Shown here in pieces: positions 52,316 through 63,066 of a stretch of DNA of 64,000 nt (its first letter is position 1; every line of letters begins with the position of its first letter). The notes beneath the pieces are model-generated. The model did no database searches, was not told where the DNA came from, and saw only the letters and a list, made by a program, of their open reading frames with translations. The position numbers and the translations under genes were made by a program. Source of the DNA: an uncultured Sphingorhabdus sp. (GTDB lineage Bacteria > Pseudomonadota > Alphaproteobacteria > Sphingomonadales > Sphingomonadaceae); contig CANMXN010000001.1 of assembly GCA_947501885.1 (NCBI GenBank), positions 496,001 to 560,000 of the forward strand, read 5' to 3'.

Positions 52316-52804
52316 TTAACGATAGGGAGCATCGGCGGCAAGGTTTGCGGCAATTGTGCGCTCCCACTTATCACCATTGTCCAATAATTTGCCTTTGTCA
52401 TAGATTAATTCTTCGCGCGTTTCGGTCGCATATTCAAAATTTGGTCCTTCAACAATCGCATCCACTGGGCATGCTTCCTGACAAAAACCACAATAAATAC
52501 ATTTGGTCATGTCAATGTCATAGCGGGTGGTACGACGGCTGCCATCATCGCGCGGTTCTGCCTCAATGGTAATAGCTTGTGCAGGACAAACCGCCTCACA
52601 CAGTTTGCATGCGATGCAGCGCTCTTCGCCATTAGGATAACGGCGCAGCGCATGCTCACCGCGAAAACGCGGAGACAATGGGTTTTTCTCAAATGGATAA
52701 TTTAGCGTGGCTTTGGGTTTGAAAAAATATTTCAACGTGAGCCAATGCGCCTTTAGAAACTCCCAAAGCGTGAATGTTTTTATTAGGTGACCGATAGTGT
52801 TCAT
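52316..52804 (-). CDS. nuoI: NADH-quinone oxidoreductase subunit I
   Basis: The 162-aa ferredoxin-like subunit carries clusters N6a and N6b through two eight-cysteine-fold motifs, [16 protein letters not shown] and [16 protein letters not shown]. It has the typical amphipathic N-terminus that lies on the membrane arm. It overlaps the extended nuoH by ATGA. Confidence 0.97.
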
Positions 52805-54261
52805 GATAATGCCTTTAGTTGATCTACTGTAGTGCAGTCACCACGTAATGAAACTCTTGCGTCTTTATAAGTGAGCGTCATAATTGAAGGTTTAGTATCA
52901 TTATAATTGCTGATAGATATATGCAAAGTTTCGGAATTACTTGTTTTTGATGTAAGAGAACCAGAAGTATGGCAACATTCTACTGCTAAAAGCTCATACT
53001 CAAAATCACCTTTTAATCTATCAGGTGATTTAATTTTAATATTAGCCAAGTCCTTCAATTCTCCTTCGAGACGTTCCATGTAAACAAACATCTCAGGCTC
53101 TCCTGTTTTTGCCTGATAATATTTTTCATCATAAAGAGGACAAACTTCAGTTGCTCCCAATGAAGCCATAATTTCAGATGTAGGAGATAATTTCTTAGAA
53201 ATTGAAGTTGTTTCTTTATCAAAGCCATCTGTCATCATTAAATAACCGCTAGTGAGCACTATGAATAGCAAGCTGATCGGCAAGAATACCTTCCAACCCA
53301 ATCGCATCAATTGATCATAGCGGTAACGCGGCACTGTCGCCCAAATCCAACTAAACATGAAGAAAAAGAAAAATGTTTTCGCAAAGAGCCATATCCAACC
53401 TGGCACCAAATAAAGCGGTTCCCAATCAATTGGCGGCAACCAACCACCAAAAAATAAAATCGCATTGAGCATGCACATAAGCAAAATATTCGCATATTCG
53501 CCCAACCAGAAAAGCGCGAATGACATGCTGCTATATTCGGTTTGATAACCCGCCACCAATTCGGATTCCGCTTCGGTTAGATCAAACGGAGCGCGTGCTG
53601 TTTCCGCCAAAGAGCTTATAAAAAATAATACCCACATCGGAAATAAAAATGGATTTAATATATAGGCATTGACGATACCAAAACCATGTCCGCGCTGTGC
53701 TTCTATGATACCATTCAAATTAAACGTACCTGCCCACAAAACCACGCATACTAATATAAAACCAATGGAAACTTCATAGCTAATCATTTGTGCCGCAGCA
53801 CGCATAGCCGAGAAAAAGGGATATTTACTATTCGATGCCCAACCCGAAATCACAACACCATATACGCCAAGTGAGCTGATCGCTAACACATAGAGCAGGC
53901 CAACATTAATATCGGCCAGCACCGCACCAGAATTAAATGGAATCACCGCCCAGGCCGCTAAAGCAACCGTGAAGGTTATGATAGGAGCAAGTAAGAATAG
54001 TCCTTTGTTCGCAGCACTTGGAATGATGGTTTCTTGCAAGAAAACCTTTAATCCATCGGCAAAACTCTGCAGCAAACCAAAGGGGCCAACCACATTAGGT
54101 CCGCGGCGCAGCATGATGGCGCCCAATACTTTACGGTCAACATAAATAATCATCGCCACCGCCAGCATGAGAGGCAATGCGATTAAGAGAACACCCGCAA
54201 GGCTGGCAATAAAGAAAGCCCAATCGGCATCCATGCCCCAAGAGATGAATGTTTCGGTCAT
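52801..54261 (-). CDS. nuoH: NADH-quinone oxidoreductase subunit H with an unusual C-terminal extension
   Basis: NuoH forms much of the quinone pocket at the foot of complex I. Residues 1-345 are an ordinary NuoH with eight helices, including [39 protein letters not shown] and [17 protein letters not shown]. Family members normally end here (about 340-350 aa), yet this protein continues to 486 aa. The added part, about 348-486, is hydrophilic, rich in Ser/Lys/Glu and contains four cysteines ([23 protein letters not shown]). The ATG at 54261 follows the preceding stop in a TGATG overlap with AGGGG upstream; the frame also has a TTG one codon earlier. See the extension entry. Confidence 0.95.
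52804..53220 (-). other. C-terminal extension domain of NuoH, probably periplasmic
   Basis: This is the segment for about 139 residues after the last NuoH helix. It has no similarity that I recognise, no membrane helix and no signal peptide. As NuoH is generally modelled with eight helices and both ends on the periplasmic side, the domain would be exported by its fusion to NuoH. The base composition looks more A+T-rich than the nuoH core. The secreted proteins encoded next to the other nuo genes suggest that it was once such a separate gene which lost its start and became fused. That is inference. Confidence 0.7.
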
Positions 54262-54914
54262 CAAGAAACCCCTGCTTTGTTTGATTGTGAGCGCATTTTA
54301 TACAAAACCTCTGCCATTACAGATTTAAGATTAGAACGGCTAATCGATAGTTGTGCACCCACAGATATACACTCATTTAGAGCCGCAGTAACGCTATTCA
54401 TGTAACGTGCTTCTTCGCTACTTTGTGGTTGAGCAATAGCAAAATTATGCGCTGCATTAGGGTTGCTCTTTATGGTGCAATCCGAAAATTTTCTAAGCGC
54501 CAATTGATCGCCCTTTATCTGTCCATATTTGGGTGATATTTCTCTATTATAATCCAGTGTAATATTCTGGGTCACATTAATTATTAATTTGCGATAATAT
54601 TTATTGTAAAGTGCAACATAGAGCGTGCGGCGAAATAGACCATCTTTGAAGACCAGTTTTTCACCCAACTTTGCACAATCTGGTACAATTAATCCTTCAT
54701 CCAAATTATTTTGATCTGCATGGCCACCAGGGATTAATAAAAATGCATCAATGATTTTTTCGCGTCTTTTGCTGGTTAGCAAGTATTGCGCATAGCCATG
54801 CATCGCTTTTTCAGCACGCAGCGTGGATGATCTCTTATCACTTTGCAGTGCAGAAGCACTCGCAAAACTCAATATAAAGCTTATGATAGGCAAAGAGGCA
54901 AAACGCAAAATCAC
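54261..54914 (-). CDS. Secreted protein in the nuo operon, second tandem paralogue
   Basis: The 217-aa protein starts with GTG in a GTGA overlap with the preceding gene. It has a signal peptide ([21 protein letters not shown]) and no membrane helix after it. It is a clear paralogue of the preceding gene product: [18 protein letters not shown] against LFRRSLYTALYNKHFRKI, and [19 protein letters not shown] against LRKASDCAVRKDLELAHNF. The C-terminal half keeps a pair of cysteines 36 residues apart (SDC...NEC); in the first half one cysteine is lost (a Tyr stands there). I do not recognise a characterised family. It resembles, from memory, an uncharacterised sphingomonad secreted family ending in LRGALAEALY. 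Confidence 0.85.
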
Positions 54915-54927
54915 TCCGCAGCCTCCA
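54904..54927 (-). repeat. Junction direct repeat, copy 1 (end of first paralogue)
   Basis: These 24 bases are repeated at 55584-55607 with one mismatch. On the minus strand they read TGGAGGCTGCGGAGTGAT and onward. The repeat encodes the shared C-terminal EAAE, supplies GGAGG as ribosome binding site, and contains the TGA stop overlapped by the GTG start of the next gene. Confidence 0.85.
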
Positions 54928-55591
54928 CAGAGTTTTGAGCGTTAACTGTACGCAATTTATATAGTGATTCTGCAAACTGACCTTTCAAAGCTTGGCGAGT
55001 TAGTTGCAATTTAACTTTTTTGGGCAAACACTCTTGCAATGGTTTGGTTATGTCTGATTTCAACTTATTTTCTTTCTTGCTGTGTAGTTTTGCAATAATA
55101 AAATTATGTGCCAATTCTAGATCTTTGCGAACCGCACAATCTGAAGCTTTCCTCAACAGCAATTGAGCATCACCCATTTCTTTATAATGTGGAGCTATCT
55201 CTTTAGAATAATCAAATTCAATAGTTATATCAATATTAGTAGGGGCAATTTTGCGGAAATGTTTATTATATAAAGCCGTATATAGAGAACGCCGAAACAA
55301 ATGTCCCCTAAATGCTAATCGCGAACCATTTGGAAGGCATGTTTTGATAATTAACTTATTACCTTCTATATTTTGATCAGGATGATTATCGGGAATTAAA
55401 AAATATTCTTTCGTTAATTTCTCACGCTTGATTAAATTTACTAAACATTTTGAATATTTATACATTTCAATTTCAGCCTGTTTTGCAAATTCAGCATTAT
55501 ACAGACTATCATAAGAATCATCGAACGGCTGAGCATTGGAAGAGGGCATGAAAAGGAAGAATGCTCCAATAAAAAACAAGAGGCGCAACAT
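54911..55591 (-). CDS. Secreted protein in the nuo operon, first tandem paralogue
   Basis: The 226-aa protein has a signal peptide (MLRLLFFIGAFFLFMPSSNA). The mature part consists of two related units of about 60 residues. Each has two cysteines exactly 36 residues apart, the second followed by LP and then an (L)xxxLY segment: KC...TC-LPNGSR...LYTALYNK, and DC...EC-LPKKVK...AESLYKL. Four cysteines suggest two disulfides in the periplasm. It ends VEAAE like NuoG and NuoF. The start may be ATG at 55591 or the GTG at 55594; the paralogue uses the equivalent GTG. The function is unknown, and its position argues for a link with complex I. Confidence 0.85.
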   Translation of the reverse strand: MLRLLFFIGAFFLFMPSSNAQPFDDSYDSLYNAEFAKQAEIEMYKYSKCLVNLIKREKLTKEYFLIPDNHPDQNIEGNKLIIKTCLPNGSRLAFRGHLFRRSLYTALYNKHFRKIAPTNIDITIEFDYSKEIAPHYKEMGDAQLLLRKASDCAVRKDLELAHNFIIAKLHSKKENKLKSDITKPLQECLPKKVKLQLTRQALKGQFAESLYKLRTVNAQNSVEAAE

Positions 55592-55607
55592 CACTCCGCA
55601 GCCTCCA
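55584..55607 (-). repeat. Junction direct repeat, copy 2 (end of nuoG)
   Basis: This is the partner of the repeat at 54904-54927 (23 of 24 bases the same). It lies across the stop of nuoG and the start of the first secreted paralogue. The pair marks the ends of a 680-base unit, which fits tandem duplication or insertion of that unit at the nuoG end. Confidence 0.85.
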
Positions 55608-57597
55608 ATATGTCTTCGCCGTGAATAAGCTCAGCCGAACAGCGGTTCATGGTCTCGCTGGCACGGGCAATCGCATTAGTCAGATAGAAATCCTTAATTG
55701 GATAGGTAATTTTGCCTTTGGCATCTGTATCCAATTTGGGCGCTTCCCAACCATAATCTGCCACTGCCTCAACGCCAAGCGCAGGAAATTCTGTAATCAT
55801 AGCCGCACGGCAAGCGGCAAAATCATCAAAAGGCAATTTATGACCCAACACATCGGACAGCGCGCGTAATATCGACCAATCTTCGCGCGCATCACCGGGT
55901 GCATATACTGCTTTATTGCTGCGCTGCAAGCGTCCTTCGGCATTGACATAAGTGCCATTTTTTTCCGTATAGGCTGCTGCTGGCAAAATAATATCAGCGG
56001 CATGCGCGCCCTTATCACCATGATGACCGATGAAAACTTTCAAACTATCGCCAAATTGCGTGAAATCCACCTCATCCGCGCCCAAGAAAAAGGCAAGCTT
56101 CGGTTTGGCTTTGACAATATCTTTAATGCCACCTTTTTGGGCATATCCGAGCATCAGGCCGCCCATGCGGCTCGCCGCCATATGCAGCACATTAAAGCCA
56201 TTCCAATCATCAGTTACGAGTTTATATTTTTTCGCAAGTGCGAGAGCATCACCATGCGCGCCTTTAACGCCCAAAGCACCGCCACCAATAATGAGCATAG
56301 GTCTTTGCGCATTTTTAAGCGCATCAGCAGCAGCTTTAGGAAGCTTTGCAATCATGCCTGCATCATTGCCGAGCCATTCGGCGCGATAGGTTAAATCAAC
56401 CTCTTCACCAATGGCAAAGACTTTCGCGCCATTTTTAATCGCCTTACGGATACGTGTATTAACCAGCGGTGCTTCCCAACGTACATTCGTACCGATCAAC
56501 AAAATTACATCAGCTTCCTCGGTGCGCGCTATGCCCGTATTATAATTAACGGCTGACATGGACGACACATCATAATCAAGGCCCGTTTGGCGGCCCTCGA
56601 GCATGTCACTACCCATTGATGCAAGCAATGCTCTCGTAGCATATAGTGTTTCACAATCCACCATATCACCAGCAATCGCCGCAACGCTATCCCCAGCATC
56701 CACGTCTTTAATGGCTGCAAAAGCTTCGCTCCAACCAGCTTCAACCAATTTGCCGTCTTTACGGATATAGACTTTATCAAGACGGCGCTTCATCAGGCCA
56801 TCAACGGCATGACGGCTTTTATCCGAAATCCATTCCTCGTTCACATCATCATTGATGCGCGGTAAAACGCGCAATACTTCTCGGCCACGCGCATCGAAAC
56901 GCACATTGCTGCCCACGGCATCCATCACATCAATACCAAGTGTATTTTTCAGCTCCCATGGACGCGCTTCAAACGCATAGGGTTTAGATGTCAGCGCCCC
57001 AACAGGGCATAAATCCACCACATTGCCCGATAGCTCGCTATTCACGGCTTCTTCGAGATAGGATGTGATTTGCATATTCTCGCCGCGCCCGACCGCGCCA
57101 ATAGCCTCTACGCCAGCAACTTCTTCGGAAAAACGAACGCAGCGCGTGCAATGAATACAGCGCGTCATGACCGTTTTAACAATCGGCCCCATATATTTTT
57201 CGGTGACTGCGCGCTTATTCTCTTCATAGCGCGATCCGCCCTTGCCATAGGCAATACTCTGATCTTGCAGATCGCACTCACCGCCTTGATCGCAAATTGG
57301 GCAATCGAGCGGGTGATTGATGAGCAAAAATTCCATCACACCTTCGCGGGCTTTTTTGACCATCGCGCTGTCGGTACGGATTTCTTGGCCTTCCATCGCA
57401 GGAAGCGCACAGCTTGCTTGCGGTTTTGGCGGGCCGGGTTTCACCTCGACCAAACACATGCGGCAATTGCCCGCAATGCTGAGGCGTTCATGATAGCAAA
57501 AACGCGGAATTTCTTTGCCTGCTAACTCAGCCGCTTGCAGCACAGTTGCGCCTTGGGGGACTTCTAACTCTATTCCATCTACGGTTAATTTAGGCAT
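55591..57597 (-). CDS. nuoG: NADH-quinone oxidoreductase subunit G
   Basis: NuoG is the large iron-sulfur subunit of the peripheral arm. The 668-aa protein has the N-terminal [2Fe-2S] ligands in CYHERLSIAGNCRMCLVEV and ASCALPAM, and the His-Cys3 [4Fe-4S] site in HPLDCPICDQGGECDLQ. The third site is CIHCTRCVRF with VVDLCPVGALTS. A molybdopterin-oxidoreductase-like domain without cofactor follows. The frame runs back to 57612, but [16 protein letters not shown] at 57597 is the family start and has GGGAG eight bases upstream. It overlaps the preceding secreted-protein gene by eight bases and ends in LEAAE. Confidence 0.97.
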   Translation of the reverse strand: MPKLTVDGIELEVPQGATVLQAAELAGKEIPRFCYHERLSIAGNCRMCLVEVKPGPPKPQASCALPAMEGQEIRTDSAMVKKAREGVMEFLLINHPLDCPICDQGGECDLQDQSIAYGKGGSRYEENKRAVTEKYMGPIVKTVMTRCIHCTRCVRFSEEVAGVEAIGAVGRGENMQITSYLEEAVNSELSGNVVDLCPVGALTSKPYAFEARPWELKNTLGIDVMDAVGSNVRFDARGREVLRVLPRINDDVNEEWISDKSRHAVDGLMKRRLDKVYIRKDGKLVEAGWSEAFAAIKDVDAGDSVAAIAGDMVDCETLYATRALLASMGSDMLEGRQTGLDYDVSSMSAVNYNTGIARTEEADVILLIGTNVRWEAPLVNTRIRKAIKNGAKVFAIGEEVDLTYRAEWLGNDAGMIAKLPKAAADALKNAQRPMLIIGGGALGVKGAHGDALALAKKYKLVTDDWNGFNVLHMAASRMGGLMLGYAQKGGIKDIVKAKPKLAFFLGADEVDFTQFGDSLKVFIGHHGDKGAHAADIILPAAAYTEKNGTYVNAEGRLQRSNKAVYAPGDAREDWSILRALSDVLGHKLPFDDFAACRAAMITEFPALGVEAVADYGWEAPKLDTDAKGKITYPIKDFYLTNAIARASETMNRCSAELIHGEDILEAAE

Positions 57598-58150
57598 CAA
57601 TGAAGCTCCCATCAGCCTGGATGAACTGGCATTTCAGTGATTTTTCGATTTTTTGTTCTGCTTCTGACAAAACAGCAGAATATGAAGTTATTATCTCTCT
57701 GATATCACCATCGAGATAAGCCCATAAACCAGAAACAATTTTTTCTTCGTTATTTGAATTAATGGATTGAAGACATCTGTAAACTCTCAAATTAACATCT
57801 TGTTCTATTTTTTTAGGACGATTTCTCTTAATTTCTTTCTCGAATTTGTCTTGTAAATATACAGGAATTGTTTTCGGTATAATTCCTTTACAAGCCGCAA
57901 TCATGCGATATCTCATCAGAGTTTTTATCGATTTATTAGGGCTTGAAAACTCTTCCAAAACATTTGCTGGCTCACTTTTCAACCACGTTTCGGTTGTTTG
58001 TGGTACTTTAGTCCATGCACAAGACACCATTTTCTCAACATCAAAAGACCCTACCTTTTGAGCATGTAAACTTTGATGAGAAGATAAAAACAATGTTAAG
58101 ATCAAAAACACCGCGACAGCTTTCAAGCTGAATTCTATATTACTATTCAT
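57590..58150 (-). CDS. Secreted protein of unknown family between nuoF and nuoG
   Basis: The 186-aa protein has a signal peptide or signal anchor ([19 protein letters not shown], about 12-30). A mostly helical mature part carries four cysteines (VSCAWTK, AACKGII, YRCLQSI, SLKCQFI) and many Lys and Glu residues. No known family is recognised, and it is not obviously a paralogue of the two secreted proteins after nuoG. It starts by ATGA overlap with the nuoF stop, where the nuoF C-terminal codons provide GGAGG seven bases upstream. It ends by overlapping nuoG by eight bases. Its A+T-rich codons contrast with both neighbours. Confidence 0.8.
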
Positions 58151-59481
58151 TCCGCGGCCTCCAATGTTTCTGGCAAACTATCCGCACCTTTGCGCTCATT
58201 TATGCGGCGCTCCATCTCGGGACGGAAATGGCGGATAAGCCCTTGGATCGGCCAAGCCGCAGCATCACCAAGCGCGCAGATTGTATGGCCTTCGACCTGC
58301 TTAGTGACCTCAAACAATGTATCAATATCTTCAATCTCAGCATTACCATCACGCATTTTTTCCATCACGCGCCACATCCAGCCCGTGCCTTCGCGGCATG
58401 GCGTGCATTGACCGCAGCTTTCATGCTTATAGAAATAGCTTAGACGGCTAATCGCACGGACAATATCGGTGCTTTTATCCATGACAATGACCGCCGCCGT
58501 GCCAAGGCCGCTGCCCAGATCACGCAGCCCATCAAAATCCATCGGTGCATCCATAATCTGTGCGGCAGGAACCAAGGGAACCGATGAACCACCAGGGATT
58601 ACCGCCAGCAGATTATCCCAACCGCCCGTAATACCGCCGCAATGTTTTTCGATCATATCTTTGAACGGAATGCTCATTGCTTCTTCGACAACGCATGGCT
58701 TTTCAACATGACCAGAAATTTGAAATAATTTCGTACCGTGATTATTCTCACGGCCAAAGGATTTGAACCAGCTAGCACCGCGCCGCAAAATCGTCGGTAC
58801 AACGGCAATGCTCTCCACATTATTCACCGTTGTTGGGCAACCATATAGTCCAGCCCCTGCTGGAAATGGCGGTTTAAGGCGCGGCTGGCCTTTTTTACCT
58901 TCAAGGCTCTCAATCATCGCGGTTTCTTCGCCGCAGATATAAGCCCCTGCGCCGCGATGGACAAAGACATCAAAATCATAGCCCGATTTCGCCGCATTTT
59001 TGCCGAGCAGTCCAGCATCATAAGCCTCTGCAACAGCAGCTTCCATGACCCGTGCTTCTTGGATATATTCTCCGCGAATATAAATATAGGCCGCCCGCGC
59101 GCGCATCGCAAAGCCCGCAATCAATGCGCCTTCGACTAATTTGTGCGGATCATGGCGCAATATTTCACGGTCTTTACAGCTTCCTGGCTCAGACTCATCT
59201 GCGTTAATCACCAAAAAGCTGGGACGCGGATTGCCGTTGCGATCAAGCGGCGCTTCTTTTGGCATGAACGACCATTTCAAACCCGTGGGAAAACCAGCCC
59301 CACCGCGGCCGCGCAAACCCGAAGCTTTCATCTCTTCGATAATCGCTTCATTACCGCGCTTGATAATATCTTTAGTTTTATCCCAATCGCCGCGCTTTTG
59401 CGCCGCTTTCAGACCCGCGTCTTGAAAACCATAAACATTGGTGAAGATGCGGTCTTTATCTTGGAGAAAATCGAAACTCAT
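58147..59481 (-). CDS. nuoF: NADH-quinone oxidoreductase subunit F
   Basis: NuoF binds NADH, FMN and cluster N3. The 444-aa protein has [20 protein letters not shown] for [41 protein letters not shown], and the cluster ligands [17 protein letters not shown] with the fourth Cys in [10 protein letters not shown]. It ends in LEAAE. The upstream micro-ORF stop overlaps its ATG. Confidence 0.97.
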
Positions 59482-59591
59482 ACCTCTAACTCCGCATAAT
59501 CGTCATGCTGCACTTGGTTCAGTATCTCCATCGCAGCAGACCTTGAAACAAGTTCAGGGTGGCGAAAGTATAAGGAAATTTCAAAACTCAT
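59478..59591 (-). CDS. Micro-ORF before nuoF, made of a nuoF start copy plus a palindromic repeat
   Basis: This 37-codon frame begins MSFE, copying the start of nuoF (MSFD; ten of the first eleven bases the same). It runs through a type-2 palindromic repeat (translated RHPELVSRS ... LNQVQHDD) and ends in a TGA that overlaps the nuoF ATG. It begins by ATGA overlap with the 68-aa gene, and AAGG lies nine bases upstream. It probably keeps ribosomes moving between the two genes rather than making a useful peptide. Confidence 0.55.
59501..59564. repeat. Type-2 palindromic repeat pair, copy a
   Basis: Two inverted arms, CGTCATGCTGCACTTGGTTC and CTTGAAACAAGTTCAGGG, flank a short variable centre. 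The core TGAACTTGTTTCAG and its complement also occur at 60847-60937 and 61735-61822. This is the form of a widespread family of intergenic repeats in alphaproteobacteria. Confidence 0.85.
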
Positions 59592-59837: not shown

Positions 59838-60029
59838 TTACTTATCACTTTCTTCGGTATCAGATTTAGGTTCATCGGCTTTCTTTGAATGCCGTGCTGA
59901 CAATGCAAAAAAAGTGACGCTACCACCAATAAACACAGCGCCTGCGGGGTTATCTTTAATAAAGCTCATATAAGCGCCAAGGCATAAAAGCATTACGCCT
60001 GCGACTATGAATAGCATTTTTTTATCCAT
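59838..60029 (-). CDS. Small membrane protein (63 aa) in the nuo operon
   Basis: The protein has two hydrophobic helices (about 5-20, MLFIVAGVMLLCLGAYM, and 28-41) separated by IKDNPAG, and a polar tail (HSKKADEPKSDTEESDK). The ATG at 60029 forms TAATG with the nuoE stop and has GGAAGG seven bases upstream. An ATG two codons earlier is too close to that site. It was not recognised as a known accessory subunit of complex I. Confidence 0.75.
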   Translation of the reverse strand: MDKKMLFIVAGVMLLCLGAYMSFIKDNPAGAVFIGGSVTFFALSARHSKKADEPKSDTEESDK

Positions 60030-60697
60030 TACCATTCCTTCCGATAGTCATGATTTTTTTCAACCATCGCGGCAAGGCTGGTAACGCCGCCTTCGGGTTC
60101 AGATGTATGACGGCCTTTTATCTGTGTCCCTGTTTTGGGCTTTTTATCTTCGGCTAAAGCCTCCAAAACAGCGGTTGTTTTATCATAATCCAAATCTTCA
60201 TAATTATCATCATTGATCTGAACCATGGGTGCGGTTGCGCAATTGCCCATACATTCCACTTCGGTAAGGGTGAACAGGCCATCGGGCGTCGTTTTTCCCT
60301 TGACCATACCTTTATTTTTACAAGCCGCCATCACATCATCACTGCCGCGCAACATGCACGGTGTCGTACCGCATACTTGCACATGATATCGGCCAACCGG
60401 CACCAAATTATACATGGTATAAAATGTCGCCACTTCATAAACGCGCATATAAGGAATATCGAGCTGCGCTGCGACATATTCGATCACAGGAACGGGCAAC
60501 CACCCCTGGGTATTGGTTGCCTTGCCAACTTGACGTTGAGCCAAATCTAATAAGGCCATAACAGCAGATTTTTGACGGCCAGCGGGATATTTCGCAATCT
60601 CTCGATTGGCGGCTTTCTGCGTCGCAGGTGTGAATTTGAAATCGCCCCATTTGGCACGGACTTCTGCTTCATCTGGTATGTTTTGAGTTTCAGCCAT
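60029..60697 (-). CDS. nuoE: NADH-quinone oxidoreductase subunit E
   Basis: NuoE is the 24-kDa thioredoxin-like subunit with cluster N1a. The 222-aa protein has the ligands in CGTTPCMLRGSDD and VECMGNCATAPM, and the upstream YEVATFYTMYNL block. The C-terminal extension after about residue 180 (KPKTGTQIKGRHTSEPEGGVTSL) is common in alphaproteobacteria. GGGGAG lies eight bases before the ATG, inside the end of the preceding micro-ORF. Confidence 0.97.
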   Translation of the reverse strand: MAETQNIPDEAEVRAKWGDFKFTPATQKAANREIAKYPAGRQKSAVMALLDLAQRQVGKATNTQGWLPVPVIEYVAAQLDIPYMRVYEVATFYTMYNLVPVGRYHVQVCGTTPCMLRGSDDVMAACKNKGMVKGKTTPDGLFTLTEVECMGNCATAPMVQINDDNYEDLDYDKTTAVLEALAEDKKPKTGTQIKGRHTSEPEGGVTSLAAMVEKNHDYRKEW

Positions 60698-60836
60698 TTA
60701 TAAGACTCCCCTCTGTCATTGCGAGGAACCTCGGTAACGAAGCAATCCATTGCGAACTAGATTGCTTCGCTGCGTTCGCAATGACAATTACGCCGAACAT
60801 TTCTGGTTTAGTGAGTAAATTTGCTGTATCAGCCAT
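60690..60836 (-). CDS. Micro-ORF B, containing a type-1 palindromic repeat, coupled to nuoE
   Basis: The frame has 48 codons and begins [14 protein letters not shown]. It then reads through the 71-base type-1 repeat as VIVIANAAKQS...QWIASLPRFLAMT and ends in a TGA eight bases inside nuoE. The end of the repeat supplies GGGGAG for nuoE. The beginning (42 bases) is repeated exactly at 61724 (micro-ORF B'). The start overlaps the micro-ORF A stop (TGATG), with GAGG seven bases upstream. Confidence 0.55.
   Translation of the reverse strand: MADTANLLTKPEMFGVIVIANAAKQSSSQWIASLPRFLAMTEGSLING
60715..60785. repeat. Type-1 palindromic repeat, copy 1
   Basis: The 71-base element begins GTCATTGCGAGGAAC and ends with the inverted GCGTTCGCAATGAC; the inner arms GAAGCAATC and GATTGCTTC also pair. 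Copy 2 is at 61603-61673 with about ten differences. It belongs to a well-known class of dispersed palindromic repeats found in many proteobacteria. Confidence 0.88.
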
Positions 60837-60988
60837 CACAAAACCTCGTCATGCTGAACTTGTTTCAGCATCCACTTTGCACTGCCGTGCAATGTTAGAA
60901 GCGGAGAAATAGACCCTGAAACAAGTTCAGGGTGACGAAAAGCGGCGCGGACTTCTGCTGCTTCTACGATGTTTTGATTATCAGCCAT
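60836..60988 (-). CDS. Micro-ORF A, degenerate nuoE start plus type-2 repeat
   Basis: The frame has 50 codons. The first 15 (MADNQNIVEAAEVRA) are a copy of the nuoE start (MAETQNIPDEAEVRA; 37 of 45 bases the same). It continues through a type-2 repeat pair ([10 protein letters not shown] ... [10 protein letters not shown]) to a TGA overlapping micro-ORF B. It starts by TAATG overlap with the 158-aa secreted-protein gene. Confidence 0.55.
   Translation of the reverse strand: MADNQNIVEAAEVRAAFRHPELVSGSISPLLTLHGSAKWMLKQVQHDEVL
60847..60937. repeat. Type-2 palindromic repeat pair, copy b
   Basis: The inverted arms CGTCATGCTGAACTTGTTTC and CCCTGAAACAAGTTCAGGG lie about 50 bases apart. The core is the same as in copies a and c, with a different centre. 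The outer CGTCA/TGACG ends are complementary. Confidence 0.85.
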
Positions 60989-61464
60989 TACAATTTCACC
61001 TCTTCCACTCGAGATATTCTCAGAGCACCAGATTCATTTTGACTAAAATAAAATTTAAGCACTGCCTCTTTAACTCCTAACGGGTCAAGTCTCAGGCTTA
61101 CAGCCGCAGCCCAACAATTACTTAACATAAATATAGAAACTGAATTCCATTGGGGAATCATAGGAGAGCCATCATCATATAATTCATCTTGTATTCTGAA
61201 TCCACTATCTGATGAATCGGTATAATAGGCATCTTTATCAAAAATTAATTTTAAGTCGAACGGTTCGTCTTCTTCCAATTTCTCAAAAAAACTATTAACT
61301 AATTTCTGTGCTTCGGGTGAATATAAATTCTCGACATTCTGTTGCCCAGCACGAATTCTCTCTTCTTCGGATGCGGAATTACCAGGAATAGCAGGTGGTA
61401 TTGCTAGAGAAGCAGTTGAGTTAAAAAATAAGAAAATCGCCCCTAAAAGATATACATACTTCAC
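60988..61464 (-). CDS. Secreted protein (158 aa) of unknown family between nuoD and nuoE
   Basis: The protein has a signal peptide (KYVYLLGAIFLFFNSTASLA, cleavage likely before IPPAIPGN). The mature part has an acidic region (SEEERIRAGQQNVENLYSPEAQ, KLEEDEPFDLK) and a beta-rich end with one cysteine (LSNCWAAAVSLRLDP ... LRISRVEEVKL). It was not recognised. The size and a beta-strand-rich end could suit an NTF2-like or similar small fold, but nothing decides this. It starts with GTG overlapping a copied nuoD end (GTGA) with GGGAG eight bases upstream, and stops in TAATG with a copied nuoE start. It is more A+T-rich than the nuo genes. Confidence 0.78.
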   Translation of the reverse strand: MKYVYLLGAIFLFFNSTASLAIPPAIPGNSASEEERIRAGQQNVENLYSPEAQKLVNSFFEKLEEDEPFDLKLIFDKDAYYTDSSDSGFRIQDELYDDGSPMIPQWNSVSIFMLSNCWAAAVSLRLDPLGVKEAVLKFYFSQNESGALRISRVEEVKL

Positions 61465-61586
61465 CGATCACACTCCCTGAACATAATAGCATTATCGAGC
61501 GGTTGCTGGATTCCCGCCTTCGCGGGAATGACGAACATTGTTGCGCGAACTTCTGCTGCTTCTACGATGTTTTGATTATCAGCCAT
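61461..61586 (-). CDS. Micro-ORF A', nuoE start copy, type-3 repeat and nuoD end copy
   Basis: The frame has 41 codons. It starts with the same 15 residues as micro-ORF A (two base differences in 45) and passes through a type-3 repeat (FVIPAKAGIQ). It finishes MFRECDR followed by TGA, copying the nuoD end (VFGECDR). The stop overlaps the GTG of the 158-aa gene exactly as the genuine nuoD stop overlaps the next GTG. Confidence 0.55.
   Translation of the reverse strand: MADNQNIVEAAEVRATMFVIPAKAGIQQPLDNAIMFRECDR
61506..61533. repeat. Type-3 palindromic repeat (ATTCCCGC...GCGGGAAT)
   Basis: This short element has arms ATTCCCGC and GCGGGAAT around CTTC and ends TGACG. It is of a kind scattered through many proteobacterial genomes. 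A single copy occurs in this window. Confidence 0.8.
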
Positions 61587-61724
61587 TTATAAGACCCCCT
61601 CTGTCATTGCGAGGAACCTTGGTGACGAAGCAATCCATTGCGATGTAGATTGCTTCGCTGCACTCGCAATGACAATTCCAACGAACATTTCTGGTTTAGT
61701 GAGTAAATTTGCTGTATCAGCCAT
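61587..61724 (-). CDS. Micro-ORF B', containing a type-1 palindromic repeat
   Basis: The frame has 45 codons and begins [14 protein letters not shown] like micro-ORF B. It then reads through the second type-1 repeat in the same frame (IVIASAAKQS...QWIASSPRFLAMT). Its TAA directly touches the ATG of micro-ORF A', and GGGGG lies eight bases before that ATG. Its start overlaps the stop of micro-ORF C' (TAATG). Confidence 0.55.
   Translation of the reverse strand: MADTANLLTKPEMFVGIVIASAAKQSTSQWIASSPRFLAMTEGVL
61603..61673. repeat. Type-1 palindromic repeat, copy 2
   Basis: This is the partner of 60715-60785, of the same 71-base length. The similarity extends on both sides, so that about 150 bases (roughly 61584-61738 and 60695-60850) are a duplicated segment. 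Confidence 0.88.
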
Positions 61725-61843
61725 TACAAAACCTCGTCACCCTGAACTTGGTTCAGGGCCTCTTTGTTAATAATGATCGCCTCTTCAAGCACAACAGATA
61801 CTGAAACAAGTTCAGCATGACGAATGATGCAATAATCAATCAC
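61724..61843 (-). CDS. Micro-ORF C', type-2 repeat, coupled to nuoD
   Basis: The frame has 39 codons and starts with a GTG that overlaps the nuoD TGA (GTGA), with GGGGAG eight bases upstream inside nuoD. It reads [11 protein letters not shown] ... [10 protein letters not shown] through a type-2 repeat and stops in TAATG with micro-ORF B', with GAGG seven bases upstream of that ATG. Confidence 0.5.
61735..61822. repeat. Type-2 palindromic repeat pair, copy c
   Basis: The inverted arms CGTCACCCTGAACTTGGTTC and ACTGAAACAAGTTCAGCATG lie about 45 bases apart. The centre is unlike those of copies a and b. Confidence 0.85.
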
Positions 61844-63066
61844 CGATCACACTCCCCGAATACAATATCCATCGCGCCCAAAATGGCAGTAGCATCAGAG
61901 AGCATATGCCCACGGCTCATGAAATCCATTGCCTGCAAATGCGAAAATGCAGTGGGTCGGATTTTACAGCGATACGGTTTATTGCTGCCATCGCTCACAA
62001 GATACACGCCAAACTCGCCTTTGGGGCTTTCGGTCGCGACATAGACTTCGCCCGCAGGAACGTGAAAACCTTCGGTATAAAGCTTAAAGTGATGAATAAG
62101 CGATTCCATCGAGCTTTTCATTTCGCCCCGCTTTGGCGGAACAATCTTGCGATCATCGCTTGCAATCGGCCCATCGGGAATATCGCGGATACATTGCTGA
62201 ATGATTTTAGCGCTTTGATAGACTTCCTCAACGCGGACCATAAAGCGGTCATAACAATCGCCCTTTGTTCCCACAGGGATTTCAAAATCCATCTCGGCAT
62301 AAACATCATAAGGTTGTGACTTGCGCAAATCCCATTCAATACCCGCAGCACGGATCATCGGTCCGCTAAACCCCCATGCAACGGCGTCATCCTTATTCAC
62401 AGTAGCTATATCAACATTGCGCTGCTTGAAAATACGGTTATCAACGACCAAGCTCATCGCATCGCCAAATAATTTAGGAAGCCGCGTCTCGCACCATTCG
62501 CTAATGTCAGTAAGTAGTTTCAATGGCACATCTTGGTGGACACCGCCTGGACGGAAATAAGCACTGTGCATGCGCGCGCCCGATGCCCGCTCAAAGAAAT
62601 TTAAACAATCTTCACGCAGCTCAAATACCCAGAGATTGGGAGACATTGCACCAACATCCATAACATGCGCACCAATGTTGAGCATGTGATTACAAATGCG
62701 GGTTAATTCGGCGAACATGACGCGTAAATATTGCGCCCGTTTTGGCACATCTAAATCGAGTAATTTTTCAATCGCTAGCACATAGCTATGTTCCATACCG
62801 AGCGGCGAGCAATAGTCGAGACGATCAAAATAAGGCAAAGCTTGCAGATAAGTTTTATACTCTATCAGCTTTTCAGTGCCGCGATGTAGCAATCCAACAT
62901 GCGGGTCGATACGCTCTACAATCTCGCCATCTAATTCCATCACCATGCGCAAAACGCCGTGCGCTGCGGGATGTTGCGGGCCAAAATTCAGCGTGTAATT
63001 TTGAATTTCAATATCGCCGACAGTTTCTTCGCTCTTGGAAGTTATCATTTCAGGAAGCTCGTTCAT
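61840..63066 (-). CDS. nuoD: NADH-quinone oxidoreductase subunit D
   Basis: NuoD (49-kDa) forms the quinone pocket with NuoB and NuoH. The 408-aa protein has [13 protein letters not shown] with the quinone-binding His, [26 protein letters not shown] with the key Tyr-Asp region, and [27 protein letters not shown]. It ends DIVFGECDR. The stop overlaps a GTG of the micro-ORF chain, while upstream it overlaps nuoC by ATGA. Confidence 0.97.

Follow-up and report, generated by a model that had tools for sequence, protein, structure and literature searches.

In the nuo operon of an uncultured Sphingorhabdus sp. (Sphingomonadaceae), the junction between nuoD and nuoE is filled from end to end by six open reading frames (ORFs) in series, which leave no untranslated base between the two genes. 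Here, we describe this junction, which lies in a 64,000-nucleotide (nt) stretch of contig CANMXN010000001.1 (positions 496,001 to 560,000, hereafter the window), and show that gap-free filling of the nuoD-nuoE spacer is a pattern of the whole family, in contrast to what is found at nuoI-nuoJ of the same operon. We infer that termination-reinitiation links the neighbouring frames and that selection is the cause of the pattern, selection on this coupling having probably filtered the insertions that entered the operon, with the encoded peptides as by-products.

Anatomy of the nuoD-nuoE junction

All the genes and ORFs of the junction lie on the minus strand. The final codons of nuoD (61840..63066, 408 amino acids (aa)), CGG TGA, provide the GTG start of the first micro-ORF, C' (61724..61843, 39 aa), through the overlap GTGA (a link of -4). 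There follow B' (61587..61724, 45 aa), linked by TAATG (-1), A' (61461..61586, 41 aa), whose ATG touches the preceding TAA (0), and an ORF of 158 aa (60988..61464) that begins at a GTG, again within GTGA (-4), and has by eye a signal-peptide-like N-terminus. The series is completed by A (60836..60988, 50 aa), linked by TAATG (-1), and B (60690..60836, 48 aa from its ATG, or 49 aa from the GTG at 60839), linked by TGATG and overlapping nuoE by 8 nt. The start of nuoE (60029..60697, 222 aa), ATGGCTGA, gives a TGA stop to the upstream frame. These coordinates confirm an earlier sequence-only reading of the junction, which had listed the same six ORFs (39, 45, 41, 158, 50 and 48 codons), the absence of untranslated bases and each of the links, all correctly; purine-rich stretches of the GAGG, GGGAG or GGGGG type that it had noted can be read before every start. 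Its judgement that such a chain is unlikely to be accidental is likewise supported, since a gap-free chain arose in none of 20 dinucleotide shuffles of the spacer.

That reading was silent about a further property of the chain, namely that pieces of the flanking genes recur within it. The first 15 codons of nuoE are copied at the beginning of both A and A' (MADNQNIVEAAEVRA vs MAETQNIPDEAEVRA), and A' closes with sequence copied from the 3' end of nuoD (MFRECDR vs VFGECDR). Sequence comparison places the nuoE copy inside A at 60944..60988 and the 28-nt nuoD copy at 61461..61488, both on the minus strand. Since A and A' carry these copies, part of the chain arose by duplicating the junction itself. 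For the 158-aa ORF, neither Pfam nor NCBIfam gave a match at E <= 1, and a search of the genus's other 44 genomes gave none at E <= 0.001; membership of a known protein family was rejected for it and for the micro-ORFs, as no credible Pfam or NCBIfam match was obtained. Micro-ORF A is also found in a related genome, G156 (locus L040), with which the A and B region (60690-60988) shares 87-98% identity per 60-nt block (97, 98, 87 and 95), whereas nuoD and nuoE are 88% identical between the two; genome G068 has neither A nor B. Exchange between species or conversion is one possible origin of this pattern of similarity. At another locus (L039), a lone C'-like ORF of 43 aa bridges nuoD and nuoE.

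The five micro-ORFs run through three families of palindromic repeat, with cores R1 CTGAACTTGTTTCAG, R2 GAAGCAATCC and TTCGCAATGACA, and R3 CCGCGAAGGCGG. R1 lies in C' (61734..61823, inverted arms 61734-61756 and 61801-61823) and, after the nuoE copy, in A (60846..60938, inverted arms 60846-60877 and 60907-60938); R2 lies in B' (61602..61675, read from the sequence) and in B (60716..60786), where its 3' arm stops just short of the nuoE purine stretch; and R3, also read from the sequence, lies in A' (61508..61532) between the nuoE and nuoD copies. No strand is assigned to the palindromes. Predicted folding gave -55.6 kcal/mol (z -4.63) for R1 in A (60830-60975) and -53.4 kcal/mol (z -3.89) for R2 in B (60680-60845), so that both folded repeats are strong predicted hairpins near the next start.

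Gap-free spacers throughout the family

To place the junction among its relatives, nuoD-nuoE loci were drawn from the best 30 loci of 119 family genomes, from 30 of 45 genus genomes (two overlapping) and from at least 80 named loci, the named relatives being Sphingopyxis, Sphingorhabdus and other Sphingomonadaceae. Identical junctions were counted once, and two loci lacking nuoD (L055 and L126) were left out. G124 (L047, of the window's genus) and Sphingorhabdus profundilacus IMCC26285 (L074) have the same junction. The 136 junctions located gave 124 distinct ones, 29 of them direct (<=8 nt) and 95 spaced by 52-1162 nt. A spacer was scored leniently as a gap-free chain where ORFs of at least 10 codons followed one another with each link, including that to nuoE, between -20 and +8 nt. 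All 95 spaced junctions are gap-free on this test, against 26.3 in shuffles and 23 when reverse-complemented. Grouping by shared ORF or DNA leaves 25 clusters, 25 of them gap-free against 8.6 expected, with an independence limited by the fact that one cluster comprises 69 spacers. Random stops or frameshifts among relatives, which the sequence-only reading had named as evidence that would count against it, were not found, despite the differing content and length of the spacers. Their content ranges from SnoaL-like ORFs of ~110 aa, through hydrophobic ORFs of 59-60 aa and coiled-coil-like ORFs of 75 aa, to ORFs of 43-49 aa that are largely repeat.

The two ends of the spacers are also regular. 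The first start lies at -4 or -13, which are in one frame, in 76/95 spaced junctions, and the last stop at -1 or -8 in 87/95. The last arginine codon of nuoD is CGG in 72/95 spaced junctions vs 1/29 direct ones, and the hexamer CGGTGA, which creates the GTGA overlap, is present in 68/95 vs 0/29, a bias that could reflect either selection or shared descent. A Shine-Dalgarno match of at least 4 nt precedes 77 of 138 insert ORFs (background 29%). Copies of gene ends like those of the window occur in a few spacers, of the nuoE 5' end in 6/95 and of the nuoD 3' end in 2/95.

Outside the family, 20 genomes of the class were picked from 58 searched. None of these has an insert between nuoD and nuoE, the junction being direct in 19 genomes and of 9 nt in the remaining one, and the spaced junction therefore looks derived within the family, over an ancestral overlap.

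The whole operon and the nuoI-nuoJ contrast

The other junctions were surveyed in 61 operons (60 genomes, with up to 20 kb around nuoE, and the window), taking inserts of at least 60 nt, counting identical junctions once and discarding junctions below -300 or above 6000 nt as mis-hits. On the lenient test, inserts are gap-free in 4/4 cases at nuoB-C, 13/16 at C-D, 53/53 at D-E, 45/48 at E-F, 31/38 at F-G, 23/23 at G-H, 11/11 at H-I, 7/7 at J-K, 7/7 at K-L, 1/1 at L-M and 2/2 at M-N. Together, with nuoI-J set apart, these make 197/210 against 62.9 in shuffles and 69 reversed. A strict test (ATG or GTG starts, links of -16 to +3, ORFs of at least 20 codons) leaves 179/210 against 31.3 expected, and at D-E 49/53 against 6.6. 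Repeat-bearing inserts outside nuoI-J, found at nine junctions, are gap-free in 54/57 cases vs 17.2 expected. The repeat cores, with one mismatch allowed, are also present in 88/779 nuo genes, and so a few of the core matches in inserts, those in ordinary ORFs, may be chance. A single family, whose 33 related ORFs are by sequence mostly R1, recurs in 16/61 operons at seven junctions. Empty sites in relatives keep the overlap without the insert, for example at nuoJ-K, where L209 has an insert and L191, L193 and L208 have none.

The exception is nuoI-nuoJ, which never overlaps (0/59 junctions at <=8 nt). Here only 3/16 inserts are gap-free on the strict test, and the difference from the other junctions is marked (Fisher p = 4e-8, with kinship among genomes ignored); on the lenient test it is p = 7e-4, again among related genomes that are not independent. 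Six of the 16 inserts, of 103-206 nt, have no gap-free chain even leniently, and untranslated stretches are therefore tolerated in the transcript.

Probable selection on ribosome hand-over

Taken together with the sequence geometry, this contrast suggests that the hand-over of ribosomes is itself under selection. In the ancestral arrangement, nuoD and nuoE would have had an overlapping stop and start, with nuoE fed by ribosomes that end nuoD and then reinitiate. Palindromic repeats, small genes and local duplications would then have entered this and other nuo junctions in the Sphingomonadaceae. Insertion may have been frequent, and where reinitiation feeds the downstream gene, mainly relayed inserts would survive, that is, those offering one open frame whose start lies a few bases from the upstream stop and whose own stop lies a few bases from the next start. 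The nuoD end CGGTGA would act as a ready GTG start, while at the nuoE start ATGGCTGA a second frame would find a TGA stop, and a further one could use TAATG or TGATG; with such a start and with nuoE-side stops in several frames, many inserts would be bridgeable by one frame. What is kept would thus be the translated frame and not the micro-peptide. In E. coli, according to the passages of PMC10666635 on reinitiation, a gap of 38 nt lowered reinitiation by 80-90% in two gene pairs and fully in a third.

Several observations weigh against this account. Many of the junctions share descent. The GCT-GA form of the nuoE start (ATGGCTGA) is equally common in direct junctions (22/28 at -1), so that it would serve inserts as an existing landing site and is not an adaptation to them. 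A Shine-Dalgarno match (>=4 nt) before nuoE is rarer when the genes are spaced (69/95) than when they are direct (29/29). At nuoI-J, too, gap-free inserts exceed shuffles (lenient 10/16 vs 5.0, strict 3/16 vs 0.5). Elsewhere in the operon, 13/210 inserts fail the lenient test (C-D 3, E-F 3, F-G 7) and 31/210 the strict one, including 4/53 at D-E. In a larger set of shorter loci, spaced junctions are gap-free in 79/86 cases at E-F, 43/44 at F-G, 6/25 at C-D and 4/11 at B-C, leaving as gapped 7/86, 1/44, 19/25 and 7/11, the C-D and B-C spacers being mostly under 60 nt. One uniform rule for all nuo junctions was thus rejected, as nuoB-C and nuoC-D are often gapped with short spacers and nuoI-J differs. 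The inference of the sequence-only reading that repeats were tolerated only where ribosomes stay loaded holds as a tendency, given the strict counts at nuoI-J and elsewhere, but its 'only' is not absolute in view of the lenient failures and of nuoB-C and nuoC-D, which are mostly gapped. In the window itself, the nuoE-nuoF chain closes only if its second ORF (86 aa) begins at an upstream start; the MKEVKE start would leave ~40 nt untranslated. In the outgroup, inserts elsewhere in the operon are gap-free in only 9/18 cases vs ~4.9 expected, with K-L excluded (14 nuoK-L values of 1938-2117 nt were unused, being taken as mis-hits of the NuoL query).

Spacers elsewhere also count against the account. 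Codirectional spacers longer than 45 nt were surveyed over ~360 kb with simple gene calls, which lost some pairs, nuoD-nuoE among them; gap-free spacers number 12/110 in the window's own genome vs 12.6 expected and 12/114 in G068 vs 10.8. As these are at shuffle level, the relay pattern does not extend to these genomes as a whole, and a rule covering all codirectional spacers was rejected. Among pairs that overlap in one of the genomes and are spaced in the other, four of five inserts are gap-free vs 1.4 expected and one is gapped. Repeat-bearing codirectional spacers in 464 kb (two of more than 4000 nt left out) are gap-free in only 2/6 cases vs 0.7 expected, one of the two being nuoD-nuoE and the other a pair whose genes overlap in G068.

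Alternative explanations

The best surviving alternative, which we nonetheless consider improbable, is that the relay serves polarity only, keeping the RNA covered by ribosomes against Rho termination or RNA decay without feeding the next start. In its favour, the operon that holds the inserts is long, unbroken translation would shield the mRNA, and the two folded inserts have strong predicted hairpins. Protection of this kind ought, however, to tolerate gaps of tens of bases, whereas all links in the 95 D-E spacers fall within -20 to +8 and the last stops cluster at -1 or -8. Polarity alone also explains less because nuoI-J, in the same operon, tolerates its inserts of 103-206 nt without a chain.

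A second and still less probable alternative dispenses with selection: elements would enter start/stop overlaps and duplicate them, making gap-free order automatic. There is precedent for such a mechanism in the account of the mycobacterial MIRU repeats given in parts of PMC12548453; NTGA stands at the upstream stop in 160/197 gap-free inserts, and gene-end copies exist, not only of nuoE and nuoD at D-E but also of the nuoG 5' end (L188) and the nuoF 3' end (L213). Flank duplications are, however, no commoner in true flanks (18/224) than in mismatched ones (142/1692), and in 62 inserts the bases beside both overlaps match scarcely above controls. Long target-site duplication as a general mechanism was accordingly rejected as unsupported by these flank comparisons, clear gene-end copies being a minority. 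An insertion mechanism by itself would, moreover, not guarantee a frame that is open and suitably long. R1 also sits in convergent and gapped sites. The R1 17-nt core has 54 matches in the window's own genome and a 23-nt core 168 in G124 (<=2 mismatches each); among the first 30 matches per genome, with simple gene calls, 9/30 G124 loci are convergent, R1 there being also a plain intergenic element outside nuo, and of seven codirectional spacers in G124 four are gapped and three gap-free vs 1.4 expected. In the own genome, 6/14 codirectional R1 spacers are gap-free vs 1.8 expected, three of the six in nuo. Away from the nuo operon, R1 at two loci of that genome (L317 and L318) forms in each case a lone micro-ORF, of 47 and 46 aa respectively, that starts at -4 and lies between codirectional genes. 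Nor was a driving enzyme found: the Y1 transposase domain (PF01797) had no match at E <= 0.001 in the 21 contigs of the own genome, while 5/14 control genomes matched, and a Y1 (RAYT) transposase was rejected as the driver of the repeats there.

The remaining alternative, that the micro-peptides are functional small proteins kept for the assembly or regulation of complex I, is the least probable of the three: some insert families do resemble real conserved genes, namely the SnoaL-like ORF of D-E (17 ORFs in 17/61 operons, one member with a Pfam match) and the small hydrophobic ORFs of E-F and D-E (28 and 10 operons), but 95 of the 126 families into which the 279 insert ORFs fall are singletons, the 158-aa ORF has no counterpart in the other genus genomes searched, and the repeat micro-ORFs compared have ratios of non-synonymous to synonymous change (pN/pS) far above those of nuo genes. 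For the three micro-ORFs compared, all short and with few changes, pN/pS is 0.55-0.89 in the 37-aa E-F micro-ORF (three species), 0.60 in A and 3.07 in the first 40 codons of B, vs 0.03-0.10 in nuoD, nuoE and nuoF. These values fit the earlier suggestion that the peptides may be by-products. At the end of B, a 1-nt difference between the window and G156 swaps the stop, TAA (0) in G156 vs TGA (-8) in the window, and the geometry is kept.

Comparison with known systems

The closest precedent is MIRU. As described in the portions of PMC12548453 that treat them, these are short ORF-bearing repeats of mycobacteria that sit at a start codon, coupled at -4, and are read as low-impact insertions; the likeness lies in a repeat whose ORF is coupled at -4 at an operon junction. 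The nuo inserts differ in that the rule tends to hold alike for several unrelated palindrome families, for ordinary small genes and for copies of gene ends, in that chains reach up to six ORFs with the last D-E stop mostly at -1 or -8, and in that no element-specific coupling ends were found. The likeness is one of geometry. Five J-K inserts (L189, L199, L209, L211 and L220) have -4 links at both ends and are MIRU-like in this geometric sense only. In the MIRU model, an element inserts at an overlap and duplicates it. At J-K, T follows TGA in 6/7 inserts, as in nuoK, which is compatible with a short duplication; no general flank duplication is seen.

Overlapping gene pairs with termination-reinitiation more widely show -4 and -1 overlaps and are enriched among subunits of heteromeric complexes (in the relevant parts of PMC10666635 and PMC6728339). 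The nuo inserts share these -4/-1 links (95/95 D-E spacers, 197/210 inserts); unlike ordinary coupled pairs, they re-create the overlap around inserted, non-conserved ORFs, with coupling here predicted from sequence. Rickettsia palindromic elements are also open in frame, nearly half of them lying in frame within host ORFs (in the sections of PMC10969869 that describe them), whereas the window repeats are separate micro-cistrons between genes, each with its own start and stop. With REP-type palindromes, which we take R1 to resemble, the repeats share shortness, many copies and hairpin formation; unlike REPs, they come without a Y1 transposase found in the own genome, and they lie within predicted translated frames.

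In the literature searched, mostly papers available without subscription, we found no account of a family-wide relay pattern; the MIRU precedent was found there. What seems new is the breadth: unrelated repeats, small genes and junction duplications follow the same rule throughout one operon and in a whole family. It is difficult to test in nature whether the coupling of adjacent genes is selected or follows from dense packing. Here, many insertions have passed through a single operon in one family, and those that survive are mostly gap-free at overlapping junctions and far less so at nuoI-J. The result may be a simple rule, a natural allele set that reporters could use, and a way for repeat DNA to become translated. 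More speculatively, and with odds we would put well short of even, overlapping operon junctions could be a nursery for new genes: because the inserts that survive there are mainly open and coupled, repeats and stray sequence would be forced into micro-cistrons translated at complex I levels, some becoming lineage-specific small proteins at these junctions. If so, the operons would amount to saturation insertion carried out by nature, from which the gene pairs that depend on ribosome hand-over could be mapped.

Other insertions in the nuo operon

Further inserts lie downstream on the minus strand of the window. Between nuoE and nuoF is the R1 micro-ORF of 37 aa (59478..59591), which overlaps nuoF at -4 and begins MSFEISLYF where nuoF begins MSFDFLQDK; it has equal length in G068 (L206) and G155 (L207). 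An ORF of 186 aa between nuoF and nuoG (57590..58150) overlaps both, and nuoG and nuoH are separated by two related ORFs of 227 and 217 aa (54261..55594) that overlap their neighbours. All three look secreted, and the family of the 217- and 227-aa ORFs comprises 20 ORFs in 13/61 operons, at F-G and G-H only. The nuoH ORF (52801-54264) has 487 aa, and its final ~130 residues look like a C-terminal extension when set against the usual NuoH length.

The window's nuoF (58147-59481), nuoG (55591-57612) and inserted 227-aa ORF (54911-55594) each have EAAE before the stop, and the F-G insert of L213 closes with a copy of the nuoF end; the common ends and this copy are a possible trace of end duplication. 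The nuoF-nuoG spacer of L188 carries, at the nuoF stop and ahead of nuoG itself, 62 nt that nearly repeat the nuoG 5' end.

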